Assembly: GCA_964019135.1 (NCBI GenBank)
Contig: OZ025265.1
Location: 21,985,143 to 22,049,142, forward strand
Direction: 5' to 3'
From: Arenicola marina
Lineage: Eukaryota; Annelida; Polychaeta; Arenicolidae
DNA: 64,000 nucleotides
The notes beneath the pieces are model-generated. The model searched no databases. It had not been told where the DNA came from and saw only the letters and a program-made list of their open reading frames with translations. How positions within the stretch are numbered: position 1 is the first letter of the stretch; every line of letters begins with the position of its first letter. Positions 1 through 64,000 of this stretch are shown piece by piece. The position numbers and the translations under genes were made by a program.

Positions 1-645
1 GTCCTAAACATTGTAAGCCAATAGCGAATGTTGACATTAATACCAAAGTAATCGGACAAATCGCATTGCAAATATACCACAGGCGGAAGCTAATTAAATT
101 CAAAGCCCTAAACGATAATTTCATTTTATTACATTCCAGTTTACACCTTGGTGCAGCAATTTTTTACGCCAACATCATAAAGCCCCACGCATACAATCTG
201 CGATCAATCGGAACATACTAAAACAGATTTGGGGCCGGCTTGTGGCATATTAACGCCAGCCCAAAACAACGGATTGAGGTCAGATGGAGAAAGGAAGCCA
301 GGTCCGTTGAGACTTTGTTGTTGACTCAGTCGCGTGTACCCACAACCATCCTATGGAAACCATGTCCGCCATCAAACACATAACATTTATACCGGAATCT
401 TGTACGAAGCCATGAAAGTCCACATCAAGGTGAAGATAAATCTAGGCATTCTATTGGCTGCTTATCTAATGCTACGAGTATGACATTTTGTAGCCACTAT
501 ATAGGGGCAAACTTCATTGCTGTCTTATATCGCACTGCCTCGTAATTCATTCGCTGGTGTTGGATTTAAACGCCGCTGAACGTCGAATAACAACATGGAA
601 TAACGTTCTGTATTGTGGTATACTTGGTGTTATTATCGCATGACA
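1..645 (+). promoter_or_regulatory. Promoter and leader of gene I-1 (reference subfamily I promoter)
   Basis: The window opens in spacer upstream of I-1. In order: GAAGCCA at 294-300, an AP-1-like TGACTCA at 322-328, GAAACCA (GAAGCCA in sister copies) at 356-362, GAAGCCA at 406-412, inverted CCAAT (ATTGG) at 453-457 and TATATAG at 498-504. A start site near 530 would give a leader of about 115 bases. The boxes are 62 and 50 bases apart, the same spacing as in the promoters of I-3 and I-10. Motifs are seen directly; promoter function is inferred from position and conservation. Confidence 0.7.
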
Positions 646-1023
646 ATGCCGTCATCACTGGTACTAGGAGACCGCCAGTTGGCAGCAGACCTCGTTCATT
701 TTTACCAGAAGCTGCATTCCAAGTTCCTTCGCGCCTGTCACCAAGTTCGCCTTCTCGATAACGGAATATATGACCTTCAGATGCGCTACGATCGCGCCGG
801 GGTGGCCAATCAGCGCTCCGTTCGCTATTCACTGCGCCTCAAGCTGGCTACGCTAGAAGGAGTGCGCGACATGTTCTTTGAGTACGCCAATCAACGCGGC
901 AACGACTTGGTTACATTTCAAGAGCGATTCGTCTTTGTGGAACTCGCTCCGGGCGAGACGGACTTGGTTGCCGACATGGAACGGGGACTGAGCGATTCGG
1001 AGGGAGCTTACCTAGCCTCCTAG
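646..1023 (+). CDS. I-1, subfamily I RYDRA-core protein, intact
   Basis: Unrecognised 125-residue protein and the reference for subfamily I. It has a variable N-terminus (DRQLAADL at 9-16, FYQKLHSKF at 19-27), Cys31, then the family core at 36-82: DNGIYDLQ, RYDRA at 47-51, NQRSVRYSLRL at 55-65, TLEGVRDMFFEYAN at 69-82. An acidic tail ends SDSEGAYLAS. Residues 34, 37, 41, 44, 48 and 51 are hydrophobic or small and spaced 3-4 apart, so a short coiled coil or amphipathic helix is plausible. No signal peptide or membrane segment is visible. ATG 646 is preferred over the in-frame ATG at 640 because I-2, I-6 and I-10 keep only the inner one. There is no intron; AATAAA lies at 1212-1217. Residue 52 is Gly where nearly all other copies have Val. 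Its twin in copy B is I-5. Confidence 0.82.
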   Translation: MPSSLVLGDRQLAADLVHFYQKLHSKFLRACHQVRLLDNGIYDLQMRYDRAGVANQRSVRYSLRLKLATLEGVRDMFFEYANQRGNDLVTFQERFVFVELAPGETDLVADMERGLSDSEGAYLAS

Positions 1024-1748
1024 GATGCCGGCTCAGCTGTACATCCACCATGGATGGTGCGTGTGTCTGGGACATGCTTCATCCAATACACGCCGATCTC
1101 CTACGAACAATTAGGATGCTGAGTAACGCTGATAACTGTCATTAAATGATTTAATGAGCTATTGGTCCTTTGCCATAAACGTTTCGCATCCGTGTCATTA
1201 TCTGATTTCTTAATAAAACTCGCATAAAATACAAAGTAACATTGTATTTCTTTTACTTCTTACTATTTAGATGCACTTCATAATTACTTATGCCGCCGAC
1301 AACACACCCTGTGTTCGCATTTTTTCTGGAACGCATGCTCGCTTTTCGTCAATATCTAATCCTTTATATTGGTAACACATGTGCGTGAGCAATGGGCAAG
1401 TAAACCACAAGTTTCTAACATCTTGGCTTACCACTTGCCAACTAATTGGATCTGCCGCTTTTTGGTAAATAACGACGCATAATTCATCGTTATAACGGCG
1501 TTTGGCGCTTGGCAAATTAAAGATAATTTTATATCGATTATATCAAAATGACTTATACATGTATTTGAACATAAATTTTATGAATGTGACACATTGTCAA
1601 ATAAAACGAAAACTGCGCCTGCCGAGTTAGTATGTTTTGTCACTAATTATAATTCCGAAAACAACAGAATAATTTTCGCACCTGACTATTATTATTCGAC
1701 GAGAAAGATATAAAATCCCCGCACACAGGAGGGCATTCGCAGGTTCAC
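1024..1748. other. Convergent 3' spacer between I-1 and II-1
   Basis: It holds the I-1 3' UTR with AATAAA at 1212-1217, then spacer shared with 12872-14119, 34505-35282 and 53611-54857. Copy B has about 53 bases that are missing here near 1411. No gene is seen; the open frame at 1288-1515 on the - strand is not kept in the sister copies. Confidence 0.6.
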
Positions 1749-2090
1749 CTATGACTTTCCCGCGCCGTCTTCCGCAGCTTGTAGTTGAGCCAAGGGGTTG
1801 AACACCGAGGTCTGTAGAGTGTCTAACTCGTCTCCTCTTCGACAGACGTATTCACAGAACACGTGACGCAGCTCATCTAGTGTGACCAACTCTAGACGCA
1901 GCGAGTGTCGAAAGAAACGCTGGTCGGCCACCACGGCGCGATCATAGCGCCTCTGAAGGTCGTCAATACGGTTGTTGAGCGGAGTGATCTGGTGACAGGC
2001 CGCTTGGTACTTGTTGTACTTCCGATTGTAAAACGCCAACATGGCGTCCGGCGTCTCAAATCCCATCATCGCCAATTCTGACGTCATCAT
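1749..2090 (-). CDS. II-1, subfamily II RYDRA-core protein, intact
   Basis: 113 residues and the reference for subfamily II. It starts with two Met codons; counting from the second, Cys31 and RYDRA 47-51 fall exactly where they do in subfamilies I, III and V, so the second Met is probably the ancestral start. The N-terminus (MTSELAMMGFETPDAML, then YNKYQAACHQI) differs fully from subfamily I. The core reads PLNNRIDDLQRRYDRAVVADQRFFRHSLRLEL. The C-terminus LDELRHVFCEYVCRRGDELDTLQ and a short polar end GAGKS replace the acidic tail of type I. A CRE-like TGACGTCA overlaps codons 2-4. It is convergent with I-1. The sister copies have Ser and Tyr where this one has Phe and His in the RFFRH stretch. 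Confidence 0.8.
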   Translation of the reverse strand: MMTSELAMMGFETPDAMLAFYNRKYNKYQAACHQITPLNNRIDDLQRRYDRAVVADQRFFRHSLRLELVTLDELRHVFCEYVCRRGDELDTLQTSVFNPLAQLQAAEDGAGKS

Positions 2091-3554: not shown

Positions 3555-3893
3555 CTATGACTTGCTTGTGCTGTGTTCTGCAGCTTGTAGTTGAGCCAAG
3601 GCGATGACCACCGAGGTCTGTAGATTGTCTAACTAGTCTGCCCTCCGACAGACGTATGCACAGAACACATGACGCATCTCATCTAATGTGACCAGCTCCA
3701 GACCGAGCGAGTAGCGGAAGGAGCGCTGGTGGGCCACCACGGCGCGATCATAGCGCCTCTGGAGGTCGTCAACACGGTTGTTGAGTAGAGTGATCTGGTG
3801 ACAGGCCGCTTGGTACTTGTTGTACTTCTGGTTGTAAAACACCAACATGTCCTCCGGTGTCTCAAATCCCATCATCGCCGATTCTGACGTCAT
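3555..3893 (-). pseudogene. II-2, subfamily II copy with premature stop
   Basis: The ATG (MTSESAMMGFETPEDM) opens an 86-residue frame that stops after VCRRAD at 3633-3635. Beyond the stop the same frame continues as a recognisable subfamily II end to the normal stop at 3555-3557. The core (NNRVDDLQRRYDRAVVAHQRSFRYSLGLEL) is whole. The same stop is present in copy B (II-6), so it arose before the duplication. Because the core stayed open in both copies, a truncated functional product cannot be excluded. Confidence 0.7.
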
Positions 3894-5013
3894 TATACAG
3901 TGGTGCTTCCGTTTATCTTGCTAATGACTGTTTAGAGAAGCAACAGGTTCCAATGCCTAATAGATATGCTATCAAGTCGCTTTGCTCTATCACAGAAGCA
4001 ATACTTCGGTGTTCATTAATACCCCGCCAATCCTTTTTATAAGACACAAACGCACATTATGCGGTCGGCTTGTGACCGCTGACTAAAGAAACCAGAATCC
4101 TCTTGATACAACACCCATTATCAAATACCCACACCTTTAGGATTCATTACGAATTTGTTAATCCTGTCCGCATGGCTTCCTCGCCACAAAACAGTCATCT
4201 GGCTTCACCGATAACGCGAGAAAGGAAAGTAGAGATGCGATCATGTTGTTTGCGCCATGATCAAATCGACAAATAGCGAAATTATACGACAGAGTGAAAA
4301 ATAAAAATTCCAGCAAATTAATGCAGGACGCAATGGGACATTATAGGGATGGAACGTCGGAAAGACTAGAGTTATATTTTCACACGACCATATGCCAGAA
4401 GACACACATCTATGTAAGATGTGCAGATTTTTGCCATACTCATGGTATCGTCAGCCACTCATATAACATCGCCCACCCAAGCCCTCATACAGCATGTTCA
4501 AGCATGATTGCCATTTTCAATCAGTGGTGCGCCTAATATCATATCCATTTCATTATCTTTTCTTTTAGCACGATCACGCCCCCCATCACGCGCTATCACA
4601 CTAGTGCTTTGCCTCTTTTCTCAAAATGACAACCATCACTTAAACTAATCTTTTGGCTGTAGCATGAAGTGACAGGCAAGAAACCAGCCCGATTGCGTCT
4701 TTAAAGTAAACGGGGTCGTCGGCCAGAAGTAAAGCCAGGTGTTGGTTGGATCAATTAACATCGCGCGTCATTTGTGGTCGACTTAAGCAGCCAAGAAGCC
4801 AATCGTCATAATATCACTTTGTGAGAAATATTTCTTTGATTCCGATTTGTTAATATGTTTCCAACCTTTCCCTATTGGTTGTGAATGTTTAGTACGCCAA
4901 AGGACAAAGCGGCATAGATAACAAGCCAAGGGTCTTACCGCGATTCTTCCGGTACCAATATTGTTGGAGACCAGCCAAAGCCTCATTGGCGCGGTCACTT
5001 CAATCTTGTAAAT
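3894..5013. promoter_or_regulatory. Divergent promoter region of II-2 (-) and III-1 (+)
   Basis: Left half (- strand): TATAAAA near 4034-4041, then GAAGCCA-type boxes in - orientation near 4068 (CGGCTTG), 4173 and 4192. Right half (+ strand): box variants AAACCA near 4680 and TAAAGCCA near 4732, GAAGCCA near 4796 and ATTGG near 4876. The III-1 leader carries about one and a third of the 45-base leader repeat (near 4945-4990). Part of this stretch (4294-4536) is open but is not conserved as protein. Confidence 0.6.
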
Positions 5014-5394
5014 ATGACGTCATCGACGAAAATGTTAGAGCGGCAGATCATCCAAGAACTCGTCGACTCGCACCAGATGATTCATTCCAAGTTCCGTTAT
5101 TCCTGTCGCCAGATCCAGATGCTCAACATTCGTATAGATGACCTCCTGAGGCGCTACGATCGCGCCTTGGTGGCCGACCATCGCTCCTTCCGCTACGCTC
5201 TGCGTCTGGAGTTGGCTACGCTAGCAGGTGTACGCGACATGTTCTTCATGTAGGCCAATCGGTGCGAGAACCACATGGCCGCCCTTGAGGATCGAGTATT
5301 CATCGTAGAACTGATGGCTGTGCTGGAGGTGGGAGAGGCTGTGAGCGAGATCGATGGCGAGGAAGTGGGTAATGATGCCACAATCAACACGTAG
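5014..5394 (+). pseudogene. III-1, subfamily III copy with premature stop
   Basis: The ATG in TGACGTCA opens MTSSTKMLERQIIQELVDSH, Cys31, then an altered core (NIRIDDLLRRYDRALVADHRSFRYALRL). A TAT-to-TAG change at 5251-5253 stops the frame after FFM at residue 79; the remaining codons run on to the normal end NDATINT with a stop at 5392-5394. The twin in copy B, III-4, has TAT here and is open, so this loss followed the duplication. AATAAA lies at 5506-5511. Confidence 0.75.
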
Positions 5395-7485: not shown

Positions 7486-7848
7486 ATGCCGTCATCCGTG
7501 GTATTGGAAGACAGCCAGTTGGCAGCAGACCTCGTCCATTATTATCAGAAGCTCCATTATAAGTTCCTCCGCGCTTGTCACCAAGTTCGCCTTCTCGACA
7601 ATGGAATATATGACCTCCAGAGGCGCTACGATCGCGCCGTCGTGACCAATCAGCGATCCTTTCGCTATTCGCTACGCCTCAAGCTTGCAACGCTAGAAGG
7701 AGTGCGCGACATGTTCTGCGAGTACGCCAATCAACGTGGGAACGACTTGGTGACATTTCAATAGCGATTCGTCTTCGTAGAATTCATGACCATTCCAGAC
7801 GAGAAACAAAACCTGTGGGATTCGGGAGGAGCTTCCTCGGCCTGCTAG
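7486..7848 (+). pseudogene. I-2, subfamily I copy with premature stop
   Basis: It begins MPSSVVLEDSQLAADLVHYY and has a whole core, then TAG at 7762-7764 where sister copies have GAG (VTFQ-stop instead of VTFQER). The frame behind continues to a subfamily I variant tail (DSGGASSAC) and stops at 7846-7848. The B twin I-6 reads GAG and is open. The stop removes only the C-terminal third, so a 92-residue product with the full core remains possible. Confidence 0.75.
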
Positions 7849-8712: not shown

Positions 8713-8855
8713 CTGTGACTTTCCGGCGCCGTCTTCTGTGGCTGGTAGTTGAGCCAAGGCGATGAACACCGAGATCTGTAGAGTGTCAAACTCGTCTGCT
8801 CTCCCACAGACGTATTCACAGAACACACTGACGCAGCTCGTCCTGCGTGACGACG
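8713..8855 (-). pseudogene. II-3, C-terminal remnant of a subfamily II gene
   Basis: Only the last 45 codons or so remain: VFCEYVCGRADEFDTLQ and ALAQL, ATEDGAGKS. The normal stop position 8713-8715 reads CAG, and homology ends near 8855 inside the LDELR stretch, where the frame is also shifted. There is no core and no start. The copy B equivalent is II-7. Confidence 0.7.
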
Positions 8856-9410
8856 GCAAAATTGATATATTCGAATGCATTTTATGCAACCGTTTCACTT
8901 GAAAGCTTTTTACAATAACCTAAACAACTATCTTTTTTTAAGCTTATCGACAGACACCCATTCCTGTGCTCATCGTCTAACACGTAACATTGCAACAACT
9001 TTCCGCGGCCAAACCTTGTGCTGTTGGCCTTTGAAGTCGACTAGCTCGTCGCGAGAATGTGAATCCATGTGTTGGGCTCATAGATTAACGCTGCACGCCT
9101 TTGCTTAAAGCGGTAATGAAGCCAGGGAGCCGACTATGCATCAGATAGAAGCGCTATCCCGTTTCTAATTGGGGAAGGCATATTGAGCCTCTTTCTCATT
9201 TGTCATTTTCTAAGCAAGGCTTCACGCAGAGAATGTGAGTTAGACAATCTATTCGCTTATAAAGGTTAAACAAGTTGTTGACAAGTTATATTCAGCTAGG
9301 AGCTGTACTGTCGTTAATTGTTACAACGTACTCCTGGTCTATAAGGTAGGAACGGGGTAACAACAGGAATAAAATACAACTGTTCGGTTTATTTCCTGAT
9401 ATTGACGCCA
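8856..9410 (+). promoter_or_regulatory. Promoter and leader of IV-1 (decayed)
   Basis: Subfamily IV promoter with weakened boxes: GAATCCA near 9061 and GAAGCCA near 9118; the first box reads CAAACC near 9012. TATAAAG is at 9258-9264. It starts directly at the truncated II-3, so the divergent II/IV arrangement has lost most of the II side. Confidence 0.5.
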
Positions 9411-9700
9411 ATGACGGCTATGGCGTGGCGACAATTCGTGGACAACCTCATGGACTCTTACCAGACAGCGTCCGTCCAGACAGCAGTTCCATCTTTGCTG
9501 TCGCCAGATCCAGATGCTCAACAATCGCATAATCCACCTCCAGAGGCGCTACGATCGCGCCGTGGTGGCCGACCAGCCCTCCTTCCGTTACTCGCTGCAC
9601 CTGGAGCTTATGGCTACGCTGAAAGGAATACGCGGCATGTTCTTTACGTAAGTACGCCCATTGGTGCGGGAATCACATGGACGCCCTTGAGGATCGAGTA
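9411..9700 (+). pseudogene. IV-1, frameshifted and 3'-truncated subfamily IV copy
   Basis: The ATG at 9411 opens MTAMAWRQFVDNLMDSYQTA, then a small internal duplication (the stretch gtccagacagca) throws the frame off. The core DNA (cgctacgatcgcgccgtggt) is present but read in another frame. There is a further insertion near 9648, and homology stops at 9700, where the sequence joins V-gene 3' flank. A 109-residue open frame across it is a by-product. Confidence 0.75.
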
Positions 9701-9789
9701 TTCCTTTACCCTTTGTCAGGAAGTGAAATAAGCGAGCGCCCTGTAGTCTTTAATTTTAAAGTAAACGTGCTCGTCGGCCGGAAGGAAAG
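9701..9789. other. V-type 3' flank joined to the end of IV-1
   Basis: Short stretch matching 17400-17500, starting at the shared string tattcctttaccctttgtc. In the 17.4-kb copy the sequence to its left is unrelated to IV-1, so this join is a recombination point. Confidence 0.5.
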
Positions 9790-17404: not shown

Positions 17405-18780
17405 CTATTCCTTTACCCTTTGTCAGGAAGCGAAATAAGCGAACACGCTGTAGTCTTTAATTTTAAAATAAACGTGCTCGTCTGCCGGAAGGAAAGCAAT
17501 GTAATGGGCGAACCAATTTACAATCATGCGATTCTCTATCCGATTGAAATTGGGAAGAAGCCAATCGCCATAATAGCAATTACGACTTGTGCCAACAACG
17601 AAATGCATCAATTTCCTAGGCTTCCGACTTGCTATTTTGCCGCAAACCTTCCACGCATGGCTTTCATATTACTTCAGCGACTGGCTTATACGACAACAGA
17701 CATACTGGAAGCATTCGTTAAGTACAGAAATACCATACTATCTTTATTGAATGTCGGCATTTAATCATTCGACGTTGAATAATAGTCACGTCTAAAATGT
17801 TAACGAACATCATGCTTTTTAATTGAAAGTAATCCAACTTTCCCAATAACCCATGAATAAGAACGACAAACAGTTCATTTCGGGAAGTGCGATTAGTCAC
17901 AGAGACCCCCCAGGCAAATTGTAATGTAAGTCATGTCAGGCAATTTTAATTTTATTATATTATCCAAAACATATGGCACCAAATTATAGTCCACGTCCAC
18001 GAACCACAAAAAAATGTCTTTCACAAAAGGTTTTACAGTCTGTGGCCATAAACTCCGCACATCGTAATCAGACATGTTTCCTTAAACATTGACAATACCG
18101 CCCGACGTCACAGGCGACTGTCACTGTTCCGCGCCAGGTTCTGTCGTCTGTTGTTGAGCCAGGATCATGAATACCGAGGTCTGTAGAGTATCTAGCTGGC
18201 CTTCTTTACGACAGACGTATTCACAGAACATGTTACACAACTGTTACATCGTTGTAAGCTGAAGGCGCAGCGAGTAGCGGAAGGAGCGTTGATCGGCCGC
18301 CACGGCGCGATCGTAGCGCCTCTGGAGGTCCTCTATGCGGTTGTTGAGTAGAGAGATTTGACGACATGCCACTTGGTACTTGTTGTACTGCTGAACGTAA
18401 AACCACAAAATGTCGTGAGGTGCCGTTAAACGGTCCGCTACGCAGGCTGATGCCATAGCCGAGTTGTGTAACCAGAGATAATGCGTAAAACAAGGGTTAA
18501 CACTGACGCGGAATGCAATGCAGCTGTCTCCTCGTATGTAAGGTCCAATGTATGTACTGACAAGGGATGCAGAAACTGTATCGTAAAGCCATCTTAGTCG
18601 CCTTTATACGACACCATTTCAGTATCAGCTAGCCAATGAAATTCAAGCACAGTAACCCATAGGCCGCATAGGCTAAATATATCAGTTTTCCTGGCTTTCG
18701 ACCTTGTTATTTTACCACGAGTCTTCATATCATGGCTTCCGTATTACACCAGTGACTGGCTTCGCCGATAGCCGACATCA
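17405..18780. repeat. Second copy of the V-gene segment (A2)
   Basis: Matches 9700-11540 nearly base for base but lacks the retroposon (single site at about 17500). It includes V 3' flank, V-2 and its promoter. It then continues into block 2 at 18781 exactly as copy B does at 45042, so this copy, not A1, is collinear with B at its right end. Confidence 0.85.
18121..18456 (-). pseudogene. V-2, subfamily V copy with premature stop
   Basis: Near-identical to V-1 across all 111 codons, but a CAA-to-TAA change at 18244-18246 ends the frame after LQLTTM (70 residues), just behind the core. The rest, including the end GAEQ, is preserved. The promoter upstream (TATAAAG near 18602, boxes near 18692, 18733 and 18757) is unchanged. 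Confidence 0.78.
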
Positions 18781-21124
18781 AAAATAACTGCCGCAACGCC
18801 ACGAACCCCGACCTAGAGACGGACGGATTGTTGGGCCACGGGGTTTGTATTCATAATCCCCTCTTAAGTTACGCACAAAACGTGCATTTTCGTCTTAGTC
18901 TCCCCAGCTTGCTGTGGTGGTGTTCATGATTAGGAAATCTCCTTCACAATTTTAACACTTTCTTAATTCAGAACAGCTACTTCTTGGGTGACTACTTATG
19001 TATTTTTAACTCGATAATCGTTCGACAAATTGTGTAAATCAGCCTTCCTGGCTTCCGACCTTGTTATTTTACCACGAGTCTTCATAGCATGGCTTCCGTA
19101 TTACAGTAGCGACTAGCTTCGCCGATAGCGATTGTAACGGTCCAATTATTATGTATTATACCAGGAAGCGCGATGTTTTCTAACAAAGCATCACGAACAA
19201 GCGATGCCGCAAACAAAGATGCGTTTACGTACTGATTTGACGGATTTATCGGCCAGGTTGCGGCTTATCAACACTAAGCAGCAAACCAGGGATTAAGGTC
19301 AGAGACACAACGGAAGCCAGGTCCGCTGGGACTGTGTTGTTGACTCAGTCGCCCCCACCGCCCCCTCACACACAACCTTCCTATGGAAGCCATATCCGTC
19401 ATCTGGTAAAGAACATTTAGACTGATGACTGATGGATGACACATAGGAAGCCATCAAAGTTCACATCAAGGTGACCAATATCAATTGCGCATAACAGTCA
19501 TTGGCTGGTGTTATTGCATTTTGTTGATTTTATTGATCGATATTTCCTTGCATATTAACGGTTGTTGGCTGGTTATTTATCAATGTCTTATCCTTAGAAC
19601 TGGTGGCGCAGTGATTGACCAATGCATAGCATTTTAAGACATTATGGCGTTACTGTCTGAAGTCAAGATTAGTTTGAAAGTCAGCATTTAAAGGCTAAAA
19701 TCTTACTTTGATGCAAGTGTGATTAAACGGCGGTGGCAAACGGTTCAACGTACACAAAATACGTGTAAGTAACATTACCGAAATATTACTAGCAGTAATA
19801 TGATTGGTAGCAGCCAATATCAAATGTGACACTCGATCATTAAAAATATAAGAATCAAACTACTGATAATTGCAGCCTTTTTGCGGCCCCTACCCTTCCC
19901 CGTTTACTGTTCTGTTTGCCAGCATTACGGTCGCGTTGCGGTCGTTTGCTTTAATTGCAATTATATTTATTGATAATCACTATCAAAAATTATCAGCAAA
20001 AAAAGTTTGCTTCCGAGACCATATTAAATATCATGAATAGACCAAAGGATTGGTTTTCATCATGATGTACACAGCAACGATCTACCATAATCTTCTCATT
20101 ATATCGAGTGAATATCAACAGAACTGAAGATTGTCATCCGGATCTCGCACAATGACAAACATTTCGACAGTCTTAACATAATAGCTGGTGCTAACGCAAT
20201 TGTTTCTGTCACACAATTAGCTCATATAAATATAGCTCTTTTCAGACAGTTAAAGTGATATTTTCCAATTGTACACGGCCACATAACACATTCATACGTC
20301 AGGGTGTGTGTCTTGTTTGGCTCAAAGCCTGAGCAAATTTTCTGATTGGTTGTTTATATGGGACGATTTAAGCAATTCTGGTCACACAGTGTCAACATGA
20401 CATACCACAGCGCGGCTCAAACCATTGATCAAGGTGCCCGTTAGGCTTACCGGCGACCCACTGAGCTGTCGGTCAGGTCCTGGTAAGTTTCTAAAGATAT
20501 CTAACAAAGATATATATAGTAACCATGATTGCATAAAGCGTTCCATAGAAAGCTAAACAGATTTTAATTGCATCATTAAGCACCTCAAAATAAATATATT
20601 AAAATGCATTTGATTAAAAAATTATCAACACCCGTAGCAGCTTGTCTTAAGCCCATCGACAGACACCTATTCCTTTTCTCATCGTCTAACACGTCTAACA
20701 TTTCAACAACTTTCGGGGGGCGAAGCCATGTTCTGTTGGCCTTTCAAGTCGACTTGCGCATCGGGCGAAAGTGAAGCCGTCTGCTTGGGCGATCCATTAC
20801 TGCTGAAAGTTTCCTATTTAAAGCTGTGGAGAAGCCAGTGAGCGGATTATGAACCAGAGCGAAGCATTATCCTGTTTCCCATTGGCTATGTTGAGCCTTG
20901 TTCTCATTGGCCATTAGCCCAACTGAACCACGCGCAGAGTGCTACTTAAATAATTCATTCGCTTATAAAGGTTAGACAAGTTGTTACCAAGTCATAATCA
21001 CCTGGGAGCTTAATTAACGATAAGCGTTACTGCGGACTTCTGGTCTACTGGAATATAAGTTTGTTATTTGCAGAAAACGGAAATAAAAACATTTTTCTTT
21101 TATTTCCTGATATTGACGCCGTCG
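18457..21124. other. Spacer between V-2 and IV-3 with two promoters
   Basis: 18457-18790: V-2 promoter. 18835-18935: one arm of the MITE-like sequence also seen at 63582. 19027-19130: repeated V-type distal block. 19310-19400: type I promoter box and TGACTCA (19337) with no I gene behind it. 20400-20490: decayed SINE. 20700-20990: IV-3 promoter with GAAGCCA near 20725, GAAGCCG near 20791, GAAGCCA near 20831, ATTGG near 20880 and 20909, TATAAAG near 20964. No reading frame in this stretch resembles a gene. Confidence 0.55.
20400..20490 (-). mobile_element. Decayed SINE head
   Basis: On the - strand it shares AGCTCAGTGGG, the segment AAGCCTAACG and a worn B box (ATGGTTTGAGCC) with the SINE at 17026-17125. 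It is present at the same place in copy B (about 46658-46745), so it predates the duplication. Confidence 0.5.
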
Positions 21125-21489
21125 ATGACAATGGCAGGACGACAATTCCTGGACAACCTCATGGACTCGTACCAGACAGCGCTTTCTAAGTTCCGTCTTT
21201 GCTGTCGCCAATCCAGATGCTCAACAACCGCATAATTGACCTACAGGGGCGCATCGATCGCGTCGTGGTGGCTGATCAAAGCTCCTTCCGTTACTCGCTG
21301 CGCCTGGGGTTGGCTACGCTGGATGGAATACGCGGCATGTTTTTTACGTACGCAAATCGGTGCGGAAATCACATGGATGTCCTTGAGGATCGAGTGTTCG
21401 TGGAATTGATGGCTGTGTTGGAGATGGGAGAGGCTGGGGCGGACCTCGAAGAGGCGGAAGGTGGCTCTGCTGTTGCCATAAACACATAG
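21125..21489 (+). pseudogene. IV-3, frameshifted subfamily IV copy
   Basis: The ATG at 21125 reads MTMAGRQFLDNLMDSYQTAL, then a one-base loss at cgccaatcc (cgccagatcc elsewhere, near 21210) shifts the frame; it ends soon after. The 3' part is open in the correct frame: LNNRIIDLQGRIDRVVVADQSSFRYSLRLGLATLDGIRGMFFTYANRCGNH and the acidic end. The core has diverged (RIDRV for RYDRA). The same loss is in IV-6, so it predates the A/B duplication. Confidence 0.75.
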
Positions 21490-22600: not shown

Positions 22601-22897
22601 TTAGTCGTATTCAGCCATGTTTTCTTGAGCATAGACATTATCACCCGACATAAGCGACTGTCCCTGTTCCGCGCCAGGTTCCGCCCTCTGTTGTTGAGCC
22701 AGGATCATGAATACTGAATGTAGAGTGTCTAGCTGGGCTTCCTTAAGACAGATGTATTCACAGAACATGTTAAGCAACTGTTGCAGGGTTGTAAGCTGTA
22801 GGTGCAGCGAGTAGCGGAAGGAGCGTTGGGCATCCACCACGGCGCGACGTAACGCTGGTGTTGAAAGCAATGCAGTCTCCTCGTATGTAAGGTCCAA
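22601..22897 (-). pseudogene. V-3, N-terminally deleted subfamily V copy with lost stop
   Basis: The 5' UTR string (cctcgtatgtaaggtcc) is joined directly to the core just after RYDRA: ...LRRAVVDAQRSFRYSLHLQLTTLQQLLNMFCEYICLKEAQLDTL. The open frame begins with TTG, not ATG. The normal stop codon (22661-22663) has changed to GGA, so the frame runs on into 3' UTR. Cys31 and LNNRI are absent. Unlikely to be functional. Confidence 0.7.
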
Positions 22898-24503: not shown

Positions 24504-24712
24504 ATGGTGTCATCCGTGGCACTAGCAGATCGCCAGTTGGCTGCAGACCTTGTTCCCTTATACCAGAAGCCAATCAACTCGGGGACGACTTGGTGACATT
24601 TCATGAGCGATTCGTCATCGTAGAATTCATGACCGCTATGGACGGGACGGGGTCGGCTGGCGACCTGGAGCAAAACGTGCGGGGTTCGGGAGGAGCTTCC
24701 TCGGTCTGCTAG
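24504..24712 (+). pseudogene. I-4, core-less subfamily I copy, frameshifted
   Basis: MVSSVALADRQLAADLV starts at 24504. Like I-7 and I-9 it lacks the whole RYDRA core, and it has lost a further stretch (ctacatcgcaagttcgacat) that puts the two halves in different frames. The tail (LGDDLVTFHERFVIVEFM, end SGGASSVC) is open in the other frame, stop at 24710-24712. Broken relative of the in-frame core-less genes. Confidence 0.7.
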
Positions 24713-28820: not shown

Positions 28821-29042
28821 CAGTGTACATGACAGGAACACTACGTCTTGCTGACCAAGACCATCGTGCTGTGTGTTTTATTTTCGTAAAAAAACGTCCC
28901 TTTGTGCTGCTTGATACTCGTTCTGTATAGTTTGTACCACCTCATCATACGTGTCATCGAGTGGTTTAATAAAATAGTAGTCTAATTATATATCTGATTC
29001 TGGCTGAACGTTCACTGCACAGCACGGCAGATCCCTCGTTCA
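28821..29042 (+). other. IV-4 3' UTR
   Basis: Poly(A) signal AATAAA near 28967. Homologous to 16270-16500. The minisatellite starts where that copy continues with ordinary spacer. Confidence 0.6.
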
Positions 29043-29283: not shown

Positions 29284-29354
29284 AAGGGCGAACTAGCTTA
29301 ATATTTGTCACTGACCTTCTCTCGCGGCCACCAGTATTTATCAGCTTACTTGTT

Positions 29355-31740: not shown

Positions 31741-31985
31741 ATGCCGTCATCACTGGTACCAGGAGACCGCCAGTTGGCAGCAGACCTCGTTCATTTTTAC
31801 CAGAAGCTGCATTCCAAGTTCCTTCGCGCCTGTCACCAAGTTCGCCTTCTCGATAACGGAATATATGACCTTCAGATGCGCTACGATCGCGCCGGGGTGG
31901 CCAATCAGCGCTCCGTTCGCTATTCACTGCGCCTCAAGCTGGCTACGCTAGAAGGAGTGCGCGACATGTTCTTTGAGTACGCCAA

Positions 31986-32128
31986 TGTAGTATTTACTAC
32001 TATAAGGTTGAGGAAGGCGGACAATCGTGGCAGTTCAGTTCAACGTTTATTTTACAACTCGCCAAGGCCGGTTCATCACGAGACGCAAGCACAAAACAGA
32101 CTGAGCATTTTGTTCTACATATACTACA
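31986..32128 (-). repeat. LTR (3' LTR of the element)
   Basis: 143 bases, TGTAGTAT...ATACTACA, identical by eye to the right LTR. The - strand contains AATAAA, suited to poly(A) addition. The purine-rich tract lies just inside it. Confidence 0.9.
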
Positions 32129-34366: not shown

Positions 34367-34504
34367 GCCAATCAACGCGGCAACGACTTGGTTACATTTC
34401 AAGAGCGATTCGTCTTTGTGGAACTCGCTCCGGGCGAGACGGACTTCGTTGCCGACATGGAGCGGGGACTGAGCGATTCGGAGGGAGCTTACCTAGCCTC
34501 CTAG

Positions 34505-37215: not shown

Positions 37216-37554
37216 CTATGACTTGCTTGTGCTGTGTTCTGCAGCTTGTAGTTGAGCCAAGGCGATGAACACCGAGGTCTGTAGATTGTCTAACTAGTCT
37301 GCCCTCCGACAGACGTATTCACAGAACACATGACGCATCTCATCTAATGTGACCAGCTCCAGACCGAGCGAGTAGCGGAAGGAGCGCTGGTGGGCCACCA
37401 CGGCGCGATCGTAGCGCCTCTGGAGGTCGTCAATACGGTTGTTGAGTAGAGTGATCTGGTGACAGGCCGCTTGGTACTTGTTGTACTTCTGGTTGTAAAA
37501 CACCAACATGTCCTCCGGTGTCTCAAATCCCATCATCGCCGATTCTGACGTCAT
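37216..37554 (-). pseudogene. II-6, subfamily II copy with premature stop
   Basis: Twin of II-2: ATG at 37552-37554, frame stops after VCRRAD at 37294-37296, same stop as in A, normal end at 37216. The core has the consensus NNRIDDLQ here (NNRVDDLQ in II-2). An open extension upstream to 37614 lacks support because TGACGTCA and ATG fall at the usual place. Confidence 0.7.
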
Positions 37555-38616
37555 TATACAGTGGTGCTTCCGTTTATCTTGCCAATGACTGTTTAGAGAA
37601 GCAACAGGTTCCAATGCCTAATAGATATGCTATCAAGTTGCTTTGCTCTATCACAGAAGCAATACTTTCGTGTTCATTAATACCCCGTCTTAATAAGACA
37701 CAAACGCACATTATGCGGTCGGCTTGTGACCGCTGACTAAAGAAATCAGAATCCTCTTGATACAACACCCATTATCAAATACCCACACCTTTAGGATTCA
37801 TTACGAATTTGTTAATCCTGTCCGCATGGCTTCCTCGCCACAAAACAGTCATCTGGCTTCACCGATAACGCGAGAAAGGAAAGTAAAGATGCGATCATGT
37901 TGTTTGCGCCATGATCAAATCGACAAATAGCGAAATTATACGACAGAGTAAAAAATGAAAATTCCAGCAAATTAATGCAGGACGCAATGGGACATTATAG
38001 GGATGGAACGTCGGAAAGACTAGAGTTATATTTTCACACGATCATATGCCAGAAGACACACATCTATGTAAGATGTGCAGATTTTCGCCATACCCACGGT
38101 ATCGTCAGCCACTCATATAACATCGCCCACCCAAGCACTCATACAGCATGTTCAAGCATGATTGCCATTTTCAATCAGTGGTGCGCCTAATATCATATCC
38201 ATTTCGTTATCTTTTCTTTTGGCATGATCACGCCCCCCATCACGCCCCCCATCTTTTGGCCGTAGCATGAAGTGACAGGCAAGAAGCCAGCCCGATTGCG
38301 TCTTTAAAGTAAACGGGGTCGTCGGCCAGAAGTGAAGCCAGGTGTTGGTTGGATCAATAAACATCGCGCGTCATTTGTGGTCGACTTAAACAGCCAAGAA
38401 GCCAATCGTCATAATATCACTTTGTGAGAAATATTTCTTTGATTCCGATTTGTTAATATGTTTCCAACCTTTCCCTATTGGTTGTGAATGTTTAGTACGC
38501 CAAAGGACAAAGCGGCATAGATAACAAGCCAAGGGTCTTACCGCGATTCTTCCGGTACCAATATTGTTGGAGACCAGCCAAAGCCTCATTGGCGCGGTCA
38601 CTTCAATCTTGTAAAT
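37555..38616. promoter_or_regulatory. Divergent promoter region of II-6 and III-4
   Basis: As 3894-5013 but about 58 bases shorter near 38250. The III side has intact GAAGCCA boxes near 38284, 38333 and 38398, two of which are worn in the A copy, which may matter since III-4 is open and III-1 is not. Confidence 0.6.
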
Positions 38617-42310: not shown

Positions 42311-42453
42311 CTGTGACTTTCCGGCGCCGTCTTCTGTGGCTGGTAGTTGAGCCAAGGCGATGAACACCGAGATCTGTAGAGTGTCAAACTCGTCTGCTCT
42401 CCCACAGACGTATTCACAAAACACACTGACGCAGCTCGTCCTGCGTGACGACG
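42311..42453 (-). pseudogene. II-7, C-terminal remnant of a subfamily II gene
   Basis: Same remnant as II-3, with the same lost stop and the same broken edge near the LDELR stretch; decay predates the duplication. Confidence 0.7.
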
Positions 42454-43008
42454 GCAAAATTGATATATTCGAATGCATTTTATGCAACCGTTTCACTTGA
42501 AAGCTTTTCACAATAACCTAAACAACTATCTTTTTTTAAGCTTATCGACAGACACCCATTCCTGTGCTCATCGTCTAACACGTAACATTGCAACAACTTT
42601 CCGCATCCAAACCTTGTGCTGTTGGCCTTTGAAGTCGACTGGCTCGTCGCGAGAATGTGAATCCATGTGTTGGGCTCATAGATTAACGCTGCACGCCTTT
42701 GCTTAAAGCGGTAATGAAGCCAGGGAGCCGACTATGCATCAGATAGAAGCGCTATCCCGTTTCTAATTGGTGAAGGCATATTGAGCCTCTTTCTCATTTG
42801 TCATTTTCTAAGCAAGGCTTCACGCAGAGAATGTGAGTTAGACAATCTATTCGCTTATAAAGGTTAAACAAGTTGTTGACAAGTTATATTCAGCTAGGAG
42901 CTGTACTGTCGTTAATTGTTACAACGTACTCCTGGTCTATAAGGTAGGAACGGGGTAACAACAGGAATAAAATACAACTGTTCGGTTTATTTCCTGATAT
43001 TGACGCCA
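42454..43008 (+). promoter_or_regulatory. Promoter and leader of IV-5 (decayed)
   Basis: B copy of 8856-9410, with TATAAAG near 42856 and worn GAAGCCA boxes (GAATCCA near 42659, GAAGCCA near 42716). Confidence 0.5.
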
Positions 43009-43291
43009 ATGACGGCTATGGCGTGGCGACAATTCGTGGACAACCTCATGGACTCTTACCAGACAGCGTCCGTCCAGACAGCAGTTCCATCTTTGCTGTC
43101 GCCAGATCCAGATGCTCAACAATCGCATAATCCACCTCCAGAGGCGCTACGATCGCGCCGTGGTGGCCGACCAGCCCTCTCTCCGTTACTCGCTGCACCT
43201 GGAGCTTATGGCTACGCTGAAAGGAATACGTTCTTTACGTAAGTACGCCCATTGGTGCGGGAATCACATGGACGCCCTTGAGGATCGAGTA
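43009..43291 (+). pseudogene. IV-5, frameshifted and truncated subfamily IV copy
   Basis: Twin of IV-1: same internal duplication and same 3' join at tattcctttaccc, plus a further 7-base loss in the cgcggcatg stretch near 43230. Core DNA is present out of frame. Confidence 0.75.
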
Positions 43292-43380
43292 TTCCTTTAC
43301 CCTTTGTCAGGAAGTGAAATAAGCGAGCGCCCTGTAGTCTTTAATTTTAAAGTAAACGTGCTCGTCGGCCGGAAGGAAAG

Positions 43381-44713: not shown

Positions 44714-47380
44714 AGCCGAGTGGTGTAACCAGAGATAATGCGTAAAACAAGGGTTAACACTGACGCGGAATGCAATGCAGCTGTCTCCTCGTATGTAAGG
44801 TCCAATGTATGTACTGACAAGGGATGCAGAAACTGTATCGTAAAGCCATCTTAGTCGCCTTTATACGACACCATTTCAGTATCAGCTAGCCAATGAAATT
44901 CAAGCACAGTAACCCATAGGCCGCATAGGCTAAATATATCAGTTTTCCTGGCTTTCGACCTTGTTATTTTACCACGAGTCTTCATATCATGGCTTCCGTA
45001 TTACACCAGAGACTGGCTTCGCCGATAGCCGACATCAAAAATAACTGCCGCAACGCCACGAACCCCGACCTAGAGACGGACGGATTGATGGACCACGGGG
45101 TTTGTATTCATAATCCCCTCTTAAGTTACGCACAAAACGTGCATTTTCGTCTTAGTCTCCCCAGCTCGCTGTGGTGGTGTTCATGAGTAGGAAATCTCCT
45201 TCACAATTTTAACACTTTCTTAATTCAGAACAGCTACTTCTTGGGTGACTACTTATGTATTTTTAACTCGATAATCGTTCGACAAATTGTGTAAATCAGC
45301 CTTCCTGGCTTCCGACCTTGTTATTTTACCACGAGTCTTCATAGCATGGCTTCCGTATTACAGCAGCGACTAGCTTCGCCGATAGCGATTGTAACGGTCC
45401 AATTATTATGTATTATACCAGGAAGTGCGATGTTTTCTAACAAAGCATCACGAACAAGCGATGCCGCAAACAAAGATGCGTTTACGTACTGATTTGATGG
45501 ATTTATCGGCCAGGTTGCGGCTTATCAACACTAAGCAGCAAACCAGGGATTAAGGTCAGAGACACAACGGAAGCCAGGTCCGCTGGGACTGTGTTGTTGA
45601 CTCAGTCGCCCCCACCGCCCCCTCACACACAACCTTCCTATGGAAGCCATATCCGTCATCTGGTAAAGAACATTTAGACTGATGACTGATGGATGACACA
45701 TAGGAAGCCATCAAAGTTCACATCAAGGTGACCAATATCAATTGCGCATAACAGTCATTGGCTGGTGTTGTTGCATTTTGTTGATATTATTGATCGATAT
45801 TTCCTTGCATATTAACGGTTGTTGGCTGGTTATTTATCAATGTCTTATCTTTGGAACTGGTGGCGCAGTGATTGACCAATGCATAGCATTTTAAGACATT
45901 ATGGCGTTACTGTCTGAAGTCAAGATTAGTTTGAAAGTCAGCATTTAAAGGCTAAAATCTTACTTTGATGCAAGTGTGATTAAACGGCGGTGGCAAACGG
46001 TTCAACGTACACAAAATACGTGTAAGTAACATTACCGAAATATTACTAGCAGTAATATCATTGGTAGCAGCCAATATCAAATGTGACACTCGATCATTAA
46101 AAATATAAGAATCAAACTACTGATAATTGCAGCCTTTTTGCGGCCCCTACCCTTCCCCGTTTACTGTTCTGTTTGCCAGTATTACGGTCGCGTTGCGGTC
46201 GTTTGCTTTAATTGCAATTATATTTATTGATAATCACTTTAAAAATTATCAGCAAAAAAAGTTTGCTTCCGAGACCATATTAAATATCATGAATAGACCA
46301 AAGGATTGGTCTTCATCATGATGTACACAGCAACGATCTACCATAATCTTCTCATAATATCGAGTGAATATCAACAGAACTGAAGATTGTCATCCGGATC
46401 TCGCACAATGACAAACATTTCGACAGTCTTAGCATAATAGCTGGTGCTAACGCAATTGTTTCTGTCCCACAATTAGCGCATATAAATATAGCTCTTTTCA
46501 GACAGTTAAAGTGATATTTTCCAATTGTACACGGCCACATAACACATTCATACGTCAGGGTGTGTGTCTTGTTTGGCTCAAAGCCTGAGCAAATTTTCTG
46601 ATTGGTTGTTTATTCGGGACGATTTAAGCAATTCTGGTCACACAGTGTCAACATGACATACCACAGCGCGGCTCAAACCATTGATCAAGGTGCCCGTTAG
46701 GCTTACCGGCGACCCACTGAGCTGTCGGTCAGGTCCTGGTAAGTTTCTAAAGATATCTAACAAAGATATATATAGTAACCATGATTGCATAAAGCGTTCC
46801 ATATAAAGCTAAACAGATTTTAATTGCATCATTAAGCACCTCAAAATAAATATATTAAAATGCATTTGATTAAAAAATTATCAACACCCGTAGCAGCTTG
46901 TCTTAAGCCCATCGACAGACACCTATTCCTTTTCTCATCGTCTAACACGTCTAACATTTCAACAACTTTCGGGGGGCGAAGCCATATTCTGTTGGCCTTT
47001 CAAGTCGACTTGCTCATCGGGCGAAAGTGAAGCCGTCTGCTTGGGCGATCCATTACTGCTGAAAGTTTCCTATTTAAAGCTGTGGAGAAGCCTGTGAGCG
47101 GATTATGAACCAGAGCGAAGCATTATCCTGTTTCCCATTGGCTATGTTGAGCCTTGTTCTCATTGGCCATTAGCCCAAATGAACCACGCGCAGAGTGCTA
47201 CTTAAATAATTCATCGGCTTATAAAGGTTAGACAAGTTGTTACCAAGTCATAATCACCTGGGAGCTTAATTAACGATAAGCGTTACTGCGGACTTCTGGT
47301 CTACTGGAATATCAGTTTGTTATTTGCAGAAAACGGAAATAAAAACATTTTTCTTTTATTTCCTGATATTGACGCCGTCG
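44714..47380. other. Spacer between V-4 and IV-6
   Basis: B copy of 18457-21124 (V promoter, MITE-like arm near 45098, type I box and TGACTCA near 45600 without a gene, decayed SINE 46658-46745, IV promoter with TATAAAG near 47220). No gene. Confidence 0.55.
46658..46745 (-). mobile_element. Decayed SINE head, copy B
   Basis: Counterpart of 20400-20490 with no clear differences. Confidence 0.5.
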
Positions 47381-47745
47381 ATGACAATGGCAGGACGACA
47401 ATTCCTGGACAACCTCATGGACTCGTACCAGACAGCGCTTTCTAAGTTCCGTCTTTGCTGTCGCCAATCCAGATGCTCAACAACCGCATAATTTACTTAC
47501 GGAGGCGCATCGATCGCGTCATGGTGGCTGATCAAAGCTCCTTCCGTTACTCGCTGCGCCTGGGGTTGGCTACGCTGGATGGAATACGCGGCATGTTCTT
47601 TACGTACGCAAATCGGTGCGGAAATCACATGGATGTCCTTGAGGATCGAGTGTTCGTGGAATTGATGGCTGTGTTAAAGATGGGAGAGGCTGGGGCGGAC
47701 CTCGAAGAGGCGGAAGGTGGCTCTGCTGTTGCCATAAACACATAG
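47381..47745 (+). pseudogene. IV-6, frameshifted subfamily IV copy
   Basis: Twin of IV-3 with the same one-base loss in the cgccaatcc stretch. Core RRRIDRVMVADQSSFRYSLRL. Its 3' half is open to the stop at 47743-47745. Confidence 0.75.
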
Positions 47746-48939: not shown

Positions 48940-49128
48940 TCACTGTTCCGCGCCAGGTTCCGCCCTCTGTTGTTGAGCCAGGATCATGAATACTGAATGT
49001 AGAGTGTCTAGCTGGGCTTCCTTAAGACAGATGTATTCACAGAACATGTTAAGCAACTGTTGCAGGTTGTAAGCTGTAGGCGCAGCGAGTAGCGGAAGGA
49101 GCGTTGGGCATCCACCACGGCGCGACGT
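48940..49128 (-). pseudogene. V-5, N-terminally deleted subfamily V copy
   Basis: Twin of V-3 with the same 5' deletion join. Here the normal stop TGA is kept (48940-48942), but one base is missing from a G run near 49065, so the frame is broken in a different way from V-3. Confidence 0.7.
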
Positions 49129-50793: not shown

Positions 50794-51033
50794 ATGGTGT
50801 CATCCGTGGCACTAGCAGATCGCCAGTTGGCTGCAGACCTTGTTCACTTTTACCAGAAGCTACATCGCAAGTTCGACATGTTCGAGTACGCCAATCAACT
50901 CGGGGACGACTTGGTGACGTTTCATGAGCGATTCGTCATCGTAGAATTCATGACCACTATAGACGAGACGGGGTCGATTGGCGACATGGAGCAAGACGTG
51001 CGGGGTTCGGGAGGAGCTTACTCGGACTGCTAA
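50794..51033 (+). CDS. I-7, core-less subfamily I protein, in frame
   Basis: 79 residues: MVSSVALADRQLAADLVHFYQKLHRKF joined directly to DMFEYANQLGDDLVTFHERFVIVEFM, then DETGSIGDMEQDV and SGGAYSDC. Compared with I-1 it lacks 47 codons from residue 28 to 74 (Cys31, RYDRA and the SLRL helix) and one Phe, and the frame is kept. If translated it would retain both ends but not the conserved centre: a possible decoy, or simply a decaying copy. An upstream in-frame ATG lies at 50788. Nearly identical to I-9. Confidence 0.6.
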   Translation: MVSSVALADRQLAADLVHFYQKLHRKFDMFEYANQLGDDLVTFHERFVIVEFMTTIDETGSIGDMEQDVRGSGGAYSDC

Positions 51034-56732: not shown

Positions 56733-56972
56733 ATGGTGTCATCCGTGGCACTAGCAGATGGCCAGTTGGCTGCAGACCTTGTTCATTTTTACCAGAAGCT
56801 ACATCGCAAGTTCGACATGTTCGAGTACGCCAATCAACTCGGGGACGACTTGGTGACGTTTCATGAGCGATTCGTCATCGTAGAATTCATGACCACTATG
56901 GACGAGACGGGGTCGATTGGCGACATGGAGCAAGACGTGCAGGGTTCGGGAGGAGCTTACGCGGACTGCTAG
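56733..56972 (+). CDS. I-9, core-less subfamily I protein, in frame
   Basis: 79 residues, differing from I-7 at a few positions (Gly for Arg in ADGQLAAD, Met for Ile, Gln for Arg, Ala for Ser near the end). It shares exactly the same loss of the core. It lies 385 bases downstream of an orphan type III promoter, so it may be driven by foreign regulatory DNA. Open, but function doubtful. Confidence 0.6.
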   Translation: MVSSVALADGQLAADLVHFYQKLHRKFDMFEYANQLGDDLVTFHERFVIVEFMTTMDETGSIGDMEQDVQGSGGAYADC

Positions 56973-62337: not shown

Positions 62338-62715
62338 ATGCCGTCATCAGTGATACTAGAAGACCGCCAGTTGGCAACAGACCTCGTTCATTTTTACCAG
62401 AAGCTGCATTCCAAGTTCATCCGCGCCTGTCACCAAGTTCGCTTTCTCCACAACGGAATATATGACCTCCAGCTGCGCTACGATCGCGCTGTGGTAACCA
62501 ATCAACGCTCCGTTCGCTATTCACTGCGCCTCAAGCTGGCTACGCTGGAAGGAGTGCGCGACATGTTCTTCGAGTACGCCAATCAACGCGGGAACGACTT
62601 GGTGACATTTCAGGAGCGATTCGTCTTTGTGGAACTCGCTCCGGGCGAGACGGACTTGGTTGCCGACATGGAGCGGGAACTGAGCGATTCGGAGGGAGCT
62701 TACCTAGCCTCCTAA
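62338..62715 (+). CDS. I-10, subfamily I protein, intact
   Basis: 125 residues: MPSSVILEDRQLATDLVHFY, Cys31, FLHNGIYDLQLRYDRAVVTNQRSVRYSLRL, tail SDSEGAYLAS. The codon 6 bases upstream reads ATC (ATG in I-1), which fixes 62338 as the start. It is the most divergent of the long-tailed I genes, in keeping with its place outside the A/B duplication. AATAAA lies near 62922. Confidence 0.82.
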   Translation: MPSSVILEDRQLATDLVHFYQKLHSKFIRACHQVRFLHNGIYDLQLRYDRAVVTNQRSVRYSLRLKLATLEGVRDMFFEYANQRGNDLVTFQERFVFVELAPGETDLVADMERELSDSEGAYLAS

Positions 62716-63581
62716 GATGCAGGCTCAGCTGTACATCCACCATGGATGGTGCACTGCTCCGTGTATCTGGGCCATGCTTCATCCAATACACGTCGATCTC
62801 ATGTGAGCGATTAGGAAGCTGAGTAACGCTGAGAACTGTCAGTTATATCCGCAAGTGCTATGGAACCGTTGTTGGTCCTGGACCGGAAAAAATTCGAATC
62901 CGTGTAATTGTCTGATTTCTTAATAAAACTCGGATAAAATACAACTTAATATTGTTGTATTTGTTTCACTGCTGTCTAATAGATGCACTTCATAATCACT
63001 TATGCCGCCGACAACACTTCTTGTTATCGCATTTTGTTAGACAGCAAATCTATATTTACTTGCATATTAATGATTGTGTGTTCGTTATACATTTTTCTTT
63101 CGGTTCACTTTTCTTTTCGCCAGAATTACGGTATTTCGAAAGTCGTGGCGCCGTGATTGTTATTAACGTTCGCTCAAATTGCAATTACACTAATGGCTAT
63201 ATTTTTCCCAATAAGACCTTGCAGAAGGCGATACAAATAGTTTGCGTAACTGCATACGCGTTGCAAGAGATGACGATGCCGACCGGAAACAGGGGAACTG
63301 CCGTCGACCTTAAAGATGATTGTTGGCGGACTGTCGTGGCAGTGTCATCATCGACGAACGGAGATATCGCCCTAATACAAAGGGGCGGCTCCGGGCCGAG
63401 CTTCATTAGCTCTAACGACGTACCACTGTAGCGCCCAATACTCCGAAGCGCTCGTGGGCCGTCGCCTATCCTGAAGTAGTCTGCCGACTCCGATGTGGAT
63501 GCTGTATTTATACCGAGGGCCATTCCCACGATAAACGCACCATCGACCGCACTGAGCTAATCAACAATGGCTGCTGCGAAC
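62716..63581. other. I-10 3' flank and an unrecognised GC-richer stretch
   Basis: 62716-63200 is type I 3' UTR and spacer. 63210-63560 has higher GC and no homology elsewhere in the window. It is open in two opposite frames (62952-63431 + and 63197-63529 -), neither recognised. A strong hairpin (cggag and cgccc paired with ggggcg and ctccg) lies near 63358-63392, and near 63548-63562 the - strand has an A-box-like TAGCTCAGTGCGG. It may be a SINE-like or structured-RNA insertion. Confidence 0.35.
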
Positions 63582-63885
63582 CTGGAGCCGTATTTATGAT
63601 CTCCTCTTAAGTTACGCACGAAAAGTGCATTTTCATCTTAACCTCACCAGCTCCTTGTGGTGGTGCTCATGATTAAGGAATTATCTTCAACATAATTTTT
63701 GCCCCTTCTTAATTCAGAAAATGCACTTCTTGGGTGACTACTGCTCTCAACCTGAGGCCTTGAAGCAAAATAATAGAGTTCTGTTCATACTTATAGATTT
63801 TGAACCAGATAATCGCTTGACAAATCTTTCACTTAGCGCTAATTCTAGTGGCGTGGCCTAAGTGGCGATTATGAATACGGCCCCT
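63582..63885. mobile_element. MITE-like element with inverted ends
   Basis: Left end ctggagccgtatttatgat and right end, inverted, caggggccgtattcataat match at most positions. The inside (ctcttaagttacgcac...gtggtggtgctcatgatta) matches 18850-18935 and 45108-45190, where one arm survives in worn form. No reading frame. Target duplication not clear. Confidence 0.6.
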
Positions 63886-64000
63886 GGCCGTTACCAGAAT
63901 GACTCAACCGAAACGAGTAAATGAACGATCACTGCTAAAAAAGATTGAGACAGTCACATTACAAGTGAAACTCCCATTACATGCGAAGCAGACTGATAAC
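63886..64000. other. Window end, nothing recognised
   Basis: About 115 bases without homology in the window or an open frame. Confidence 0.4.

Follow-up and report, generated by a model that had tools for sequence, protein, structure and literature searches.

What kind of gene is repeated along the 64,000 nucleotides (nt) of Arenicola marina contig OZ025265.1 analysed here (assembly GCA_964019135.1, positions 21,985,143 to 22,049,142; hereafter the window)? The initial annotation described a clustered family of small single-exon genes, under protein-level selection and with no known domain. That much of the description stands; the other clusters of the family, a tandem array on another contig, histone-type 3′ ends and a histone neighbour all lie beyond the window and were outside its view. 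The copies in the window make up one branch of a family found across the genome. As a probable explanation we favour a lineage-restricted family of helical-hairpin proteins, one branch of which carries predicted signals for histone-type 3′ processing and is probably expressed in S phase or the early embryo.

The family across the genome

The assembly spans 867 Mb in 762 contigs, and the window forms part of contig C20. A search with one window protein returned 718 candidates, the best 150 of which were scored, so that the counts are a lower bound. Family clusters among the matches listed lie at C20:21.89-22.10 Mb (the cluster of the window), C20:25.38-25.40, C5:44.69-44.82, C7:3.96-4.31 and C17:19.83, accompanied by single copies at C9:15.087, C9:18.988 and C14:9.34 and a broken outlier at C5:43.58. 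The clustering first seen in the window therefore recurs on C5, C7, C17 and elsewhere on C20. When the most divergent member, C9:18.988, served as the query (best 150 of 709 candidates), the same places were found except the C5:43.58 outlier. The window matches are not due to chance, because E values reach 1e-80 there and, for the 150 matches scored genome-wide, range between 2.6e-76 and 5.7e-15. A looser motif pattern, with 723 and 401 matches against 197 and 214 in its controls, was not used for counting members.

The proteins are ~104-150 amino acids (aa) long, and from the open frames we infer a single-exon structure. The C7 copies form a regular tandem array, and every C7 row listed in the C9:18.988 search is free of internal stops. 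The genome holds 431 occurrences of a 30-mer over the C7 3′ end, every one on a single strand, and none of its reversed-pattern control. The first 100 of these sites all fall in C7:3.88-4.02 Mb with a spacing of mostly 1,327-1,328 bp, which gives a tandem unit of ~1,328 bp; the very first (L094) holds a copy broken by an in-frame stop. Four units that were compared have a mean column identity of 97%. The best reading of these sequences is that tandem duplication gave rise to the several clusters of the family and that it is lineage-restricted; it is not reported in the open-licence literature searched.

Two types of 3′ end

We surveyed 3′ ends by pattern, with small variation allowed, in 20 copies outside the window and in its 16 open copies. 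A histone-type stem-loop (6-bp stem, 4-nt loop) lies 20-40 nt past the stop codon in 14 of the 20 outside copies: seven on C5, two on C17, four on C7, and C9:18.988. By a lenient pattern, a purine-rich downstream element is present in 12 of these 14, and AATAAA occurs within 300 nt in two. RF00032, the Rfam model of the histone 3′ stem-loop, matches behind the family gene at 8 of the 20 loci (on C5, C7 and C17), with E values of 3.4e-5 to 6.9e-4 at seven and 0.64 at one. The four C20:25.38 copies have AATAAA instead of the hairpin. No hairpin follows any of the 16 open window copies, the window branch likewise lacks the purine element by the same pattern, and a strict stem-loop rule finds no match anywhere in the 64 kb; AATAAA lies within 300 nt of the stop in 12 of the 16. 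By these predicted signals the family has two types of 3′ end, histone-type (C5, C7, C17 and one C9 copy) versus AATAAA. The remaining Rfam rows, at family loci and in the window, fell under their own cut-offs and were disregarded.

Upstream of the ATG, a TATA-like box is found at 56-103 nt in the seven C5, C7 and C17 copies examined and at 130-179 nt in 6 of 8 window copies; it is absent within 300 nt upstream of C9:18.988. Several shorter elements were also seen. Upstream of the TATA box, 5 of 6 C5 and C17 copies (among L041-L048) have CACGTGAC; in at least 5 of 8 window copies, ATTGG stands near the TATA position or upstream of it. In four C5 and C17 copies (L041, L042, L043 and L048) a further hairpin-like stretch, AGCTCTATTTTGAGCC or a close variant, lies between the stem-loop and the purine element.

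A protein tree of 52 sequences strongly supports a group of the C5, C17, C7 and C14 copies (99.7/100), to which C9:18.988 is joined weakly (51.7/80). The window's cluster forms a group of its own (95.3/98). Either the hairpin was gained early in the C5/C17/C7 branch and then lost in C14, or it is older and was lost in the other members.

Specificity and covariation of the stem-loop

AGCTCTTTTCAGAGCT occurs 45 times in the 867 Mb, against none for its reversed-pattern control. These sites divide into 39 in the C5 cluster, one in the C7 array and five at C17:19.825-19.838 Mb, and all are inside or within ~5 kb of family matches listed. Thirty-six lie 60-138 bp past a same-strand family match; the other nine have no match among the best 150 of 718. 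A second pattern, made of the loop, the 3′ half of the stem and the purine element, finds 93 genome sites (reversed control 0), of which 25 are in the C5 cluster, one is on C17, one is at C9:18.988 and 66 belong to a second C7 tandem array with a ~1,280-bp period (C7:12300721-12429857), where the assignment depends on a pattern that covers the 3′ stem half only. None of the histone-family matches listed genome-wide falls in this second array. The array may hold a further branch of the family, linker histone genes or a different gene with a histone-type 3′ end, and in the last case the signal would extend beyond both histones and the present family.

The local histone stems read GGTCTT/AAGACC or GGTCCT/AGGACC, and the family stems AGCTCT/AGAGCT. 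At C9:18.988 the stem is GGTTCT/AGAGCC, followed by TCCAAAAAGAAAAC, an element also seen at the local histones. For covariation we aligned 15 hand-picked rows (seven histone and eight family; 12 distinct), leaving out the mispaired copy L044 and the copy at the array edge, a choice that favours the result. The histone rows include the hairpins that follow a truncated H2B and an H4. All cells (100%) are paired, four of the six pairs change on both sides, and none of 500 shuffles reaches the covariation score. The predicted stem of the family covaries with those of the local histones.

Genome-wide, RF00032 gives 72 listed matches (75 scored of 108,735 candidates). Apart from those at C9:15.57-15.59 and on C13, they sit close to histone-family matches; the family's own hairpins are not among the 72. 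Three of the C9 and C13 sites were read (L096, L097 and L098) and look linker H1-like by eye, one of them frame-broken. Both places, C9:15.570-15.594 Mb and C13:39.47-39.89 Mb, carry such H1-like genes (by eye) with histone stem-loops, and the C9 sites are mostly ~2.14 kb apart.

Histone neighbourhood

Core histones on C5 are ordered H2B(-) H2A(+) H3(-) H4(-), in agreement with the annelid unit of PMC12153100. The C5 histone repeat ends in a truncated H2B (44,693,707-44,693,982). Next on that strand, after ~450 bp, comes a family copy (44,694,437-44,694,697), followed at 44,696.2-44,696.5 kb by an open copy whose hairpin is well formed. A gene for SLBP is present in the genome.

This junction bears on a rival account, in which the gene lay next to a histone array, acquired the array's 3′ end through recombination and then multiplied through unequal crossing-over, with no need for S-phase dosage. 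The direct adjacency on C5 speaks for it, as do a further histone array ~2.5 kb from the broken copy at C5:43.5826 Mb and the near-identical C7 units, a sign of recent homogenisation. However, the stems of the family differ from those of the local histones by paired changes and so were not copied recently; hairpin and purine element recur on a different contig, in the highly divergent C9:18.988; and coding selection is clear. We consider such capture unlikely, if the best of the rivals.

The family resembles replication-dependent histone arrays (H4-H3-H2A-H2B repeats, H1) in its short open genes, TATA-like boxes, tandem arrays and 3′ stem-loop with purine element, and in that one cluster, on C5, adjoins such an array. 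It differs in lacking any histone Pfam match, in a window member modelled as a long two-helix hairpin rather than a histone fold, in its stem (AGCTCT/AGAGCT versus GGTCTT/AAGACC) and in the AATAAA that part of the family has instead. Replication-independent histone variants carry poly(A) ends, so one protein family split between hairpin and AATAAA ends has a parallel there; unlike those variants, the AATAAA-type members here, too, occur in clusters and have a frame that is open within one exon. To our knowledge, a hairpin 3′ end without poly(A) is regarded as exclusive to histone mRNAs in animals, and the open-licence literature searched holds no report of non-histone genes with a histone-type 3′ end.

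Selection on the core

Selection was estimated under the GY codon model from 54 distinct, unbroken cores of 80 codons. From 118 matching open reading frames (ORFs), 47 had been dropped as duplicate loci, as too short or as lacking the anchor motif (the last step removed a few intact copies too), and 9 of the 63 distinct sequences were then dropped for broken ends. Omega is 0.198 for all 54 sequences, 0.268 for 28 from the window's cluster and 0.262 for 14 from C5 and C17. Twice the log-likelihood difference from omega = 1 on the same trees is 373, 103 and 39.5, respectively, where the omega = 1 fits take the best of five kappa values (for the window set, the top of the grid) and IQ-TREE warned that parameters outnumber sites in the full set. 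Mean within-group pN/pS is 0.18-0.53 over the seven groups with a value and is highest in the nearly identical C7 set; between-cluster ratios are rough because dS often approaches saturation. Purifying selection acts on the core. The dN/dS near 1 that the initial annotation had named, together with an absence of transcripts, as refuting its reading was not seen.

These values also bear on the idea of a fast-evolving family of immune or effector type, whose turnover in the window is diversification and whose histone-type end is incidental in some members. Birth-and-death turnover, with many broken window copies, and termini specific to each subfamily would fit. A core omega of 0.2-0.27 and near-identical C7 copies do not, and we give this idea only a slim chance.

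The protein and its modelled fold

Fourteen members were scanned against profile libraries. No Pfam or NCBIfam model reached its cut-off, the PHROGs rows were likewise weak, and the best E value over all three libraries was 0.0042; none of the weak matches is common to more than two of the 14. No histone family appeared at E up to 1 in the Pfam scan, and no Snf7/CHMP Pfam match was found. A herpesvirus Pfam model matched one member only, at E 0.03, and was rejected as under its cut-off. A PDB sequence search gave nothing convincing, the best being ribosomal protein uS15 (E 0.034).

AlphaFold2, run on the window alignment for a VDS member (the gene at 58680), predicts helices at residues 3-53 and 57-114 that form a two-helix hairpin. 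The predicted local distance difference test score (pLDDT) is 96-98 for the block of residues 31-80 and 79.5 on average, and the predicted template-modelling score (pTM) is 0.58. Foldseek returned only generic helical hairpins, such as ESCRT-III (best E 0.15) and Rad50. The model shares a helical-hairpin shape with ESCRT-III cores (CHMP3, Snf7), Rad50 hairpins and prefoldin, at query-normalised template-modelling (TM) scores of ~0.6-0.75, but the shape is generic and no match reaches E 0.001 or better. Profile scans, sequence search and fold comparison thus bear out the absence of a known domain. The isoelectric point (pI) varies with the branch: 4.2-4.4 for the four C20:25.38 copies and C9:15.087, which have long acidic tails, 6.0-6.8 for C5, C17 and C7 copies, 7.7 for C14, 10.5 for the basic C9:18.988 and 4.8-7.6 for eight window copies. 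Tentatively, we picture a helical protein that could act in the nucleus or handle chromatin and be required in DNA-scaled amounts.

A match to a transposon or virus, which the initial annotation had named as a refutation, did not arise in Pfam, PHROGs, the viral scans or Foldseek against viral models. That the gene comes from a mobile element or a virus, whether domesticated or active, is very improbable, even if the many copies and a long terminal repeat (LTR) element within one window copy might be cited in favour: pattern-based scans found no viral or prokaryotic relative and Foldseek no viral model at E 0.001, a search of the window limited to inverted repeats of at least 300 bp found none, and most copies examined keep their own TATA-like and 3′-end signals.

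Predicted processing and expression

We return to the favoured explanation, a lineage-restricted helical-hairpin family with one histone-type branch. Transcripts of the C5/C7/C17 branch would be cut by the SLBP and U7 machinery and end without poly(A). They would be produced during S phase or else kept in oocytes, and hundreds of gene copies would supply dosage, as for histones. Because it has no hairpin and mostly has AATAAA, the window branch probably yields mRNA with a usual poly(A) tail, and in this would resemble replication-independent histone variants.

Several observations weigh against this explanation. RF00032 scores at family loci are 19.3-30.7 bits, below the gathering score of 34, and even with an E limit of 10 the model has no match in the window. 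Neither hairpin nor AATAAA is present in C9:15.087 or in C14, which nests within the hairpin branch. One stem pair is mispaired in the C5 copy L044, and the array-edge copy is damaged, with 86 aa, a changed C-terminal end and a mispaired first stem pair. As for covariation, the count of pairs changed on both sides is equalled by 88 of 500 shuffles, and the count of pair types by all 500. The Rfam model of U7 matched nothing in the genome, a result that carries no weight because no control gave a signal either. Finally, the fold matches are generic helical hairpins, and a chromatin role is argued from expression logic only.

A broader claim, that a non-histone protein class with ~431 copies of one type and dozens more passes through the histone 3′-end pathway, is replication-coupled or egg-stored and serves as a chromosomal protein or embryo-dosage factor, seems to us evenly balanced. 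The histone-type 3′ end of one branch suggests bulk production in step with DNA replication. If the broader claim is true, the class would escape poly(A) RNA sequencing (RNA-seq). A non-histone family with histone 3′ signals would let the rules of the pathway be tested outside histones, and would point to a protein whose supply follows DNA replication and to genes missed by poly(A)-selected RNA-seq and homology-based annotation.

Copies in the window

Window copies were collected by tblastn with six window representatives, the matches were merged, and three frames were then read by eye. This gives 34 stretches, 16 open and full-length and 18 broken or partial, so that roughly half of the copies are broken; the rows at 31735 and 34367 are two halves of a single copy with the LTR element inserted between. 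The open copies divide by eye into the subfamilies VDS (four), MDS (one), VHF (five), LAF (four) and QQY (two), and the 34 copies or pieces, 16 open copies and five subfamilies of the initial annotation prove correct. Its ungapped alignment, claimed for the first 85 residues, extends to about residue 96 in the 16 open proteins, save for one or two extra N-terminal residues in some. Its fixed positions hold less strictly: Cys31 is kept in 15 of the 16 and RYDRA in 14, with RYDHA in the other two. The ends of the proteins are subfamily-specific, as it had described.

Table 1 Family copies and pieces in the window. AATAAA was sought within 300 nt past the stop.
Feature	Position	Strand	Remarks
Open VHF copy, 125 aa	646..1023	+	AATAAA 188 nt past stop
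Open LAF copy, 113 aa	1749..2090	-	No AATAAA in 300 nt
Broken LAF copy, one in-frame stop	3558..3896	-	
Broken VDS copy, one in-frame stop	5014..5391	+	
Broken VHF copy, one in-frame stop	7486..7833	+	
3′ fragment	8716..8829	-	tblastn
Broken copy, frame shifts	9402..9715	+	
Open QQY copy, 111 aa	10880..11215	-	AATAAA
Open VHF copy, 127 aa	12488..12871	+	AATAAA
Open LAF copy, 114 aa	14120..14464	-	No AATAAA in 300 nt
Open VDS copy, 126 aa	15692..16072	+	No AATAAA in 300 nt; partial second copy then to 16257
Broken QQY copy, one in-frame stop	18097..18456	-	
Broken MDS-like copy, 5′ part out of frame	21113..21486	+	
Partial QQY-like copy, no 5′ part	22634..22846	-	
VHF-like fragment	24504..24697	+	
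Open VDS copy, 126 aa	26293..26673	+	AATAAA
Open MDS copy, 125 aa	28443..28820	+	AATAAA
5′ part of VHF copy, interrupted by LTR retroelement	31735..31986	+	
3′ part of the 31735 VHF copy, past retroelement	34367..34501	+	
Open LAF copy, 113 aa	35283..35624	-	No AATAAA in 300 nt
Broken LAF copy, one in-frame stop	37219..37557	-	
Open VDS copy, 126 aa	38617..38997	+	AATAAA
Open VHF copy, 120 aa	41084..41446	+	AATAAA
3′ fragment	42314..42427	-	tblastn
Broken copy, frame shifts	43000..43327	+	
Open QQY copy, 111 aa	44378..44713	-	AATAAA
Broken MDS-like copy	47369..47742	+	
Broken QQY-like copy	48943..49124	-	
VHF-like copy, internal deletion	50794..51021	+	
Open VHF copy, 127 aa	53227..53610	+	AATAAA
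Open LAF copy, 114 aa	54858..55202	-	AATAAA
VHF-like copy, internal deletion	56733..56960	+	
Open VDS copy, 126 aa	58680..59060	+	AATAAA; TATA-like box 179 nt upstream of ATG; structure modelled
Open VHF copy, 125 aa	62338..62715	+	AATAAA

The LTR retroelement occupies 31990-34366; an ORF at 32931-34472 looks reverse transcriptase/RNase H-like by eye, and similar frames stand at both ends. A short-period repeat at 28966-29357 gives low-complexity ORFs on both strands. Past the 58680 gene lies a short inverted stretch which, by eye, is not of histone type.

Elsewhere in the assembly, the mitochondrial contig (translation table 5; genes named by eye) reads nad1-nad3-nad2-cox1-cox2-cox3-nad6-cob-atp6-nad5 on one strand, a gene order that indicates an annelid and not a sea urchin. 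The blocks cox3-nad6-cob-atp6-nad5 and nad1-nad3 are common to Urechis, Lumbricus and Platynereis, according to PMC521484.

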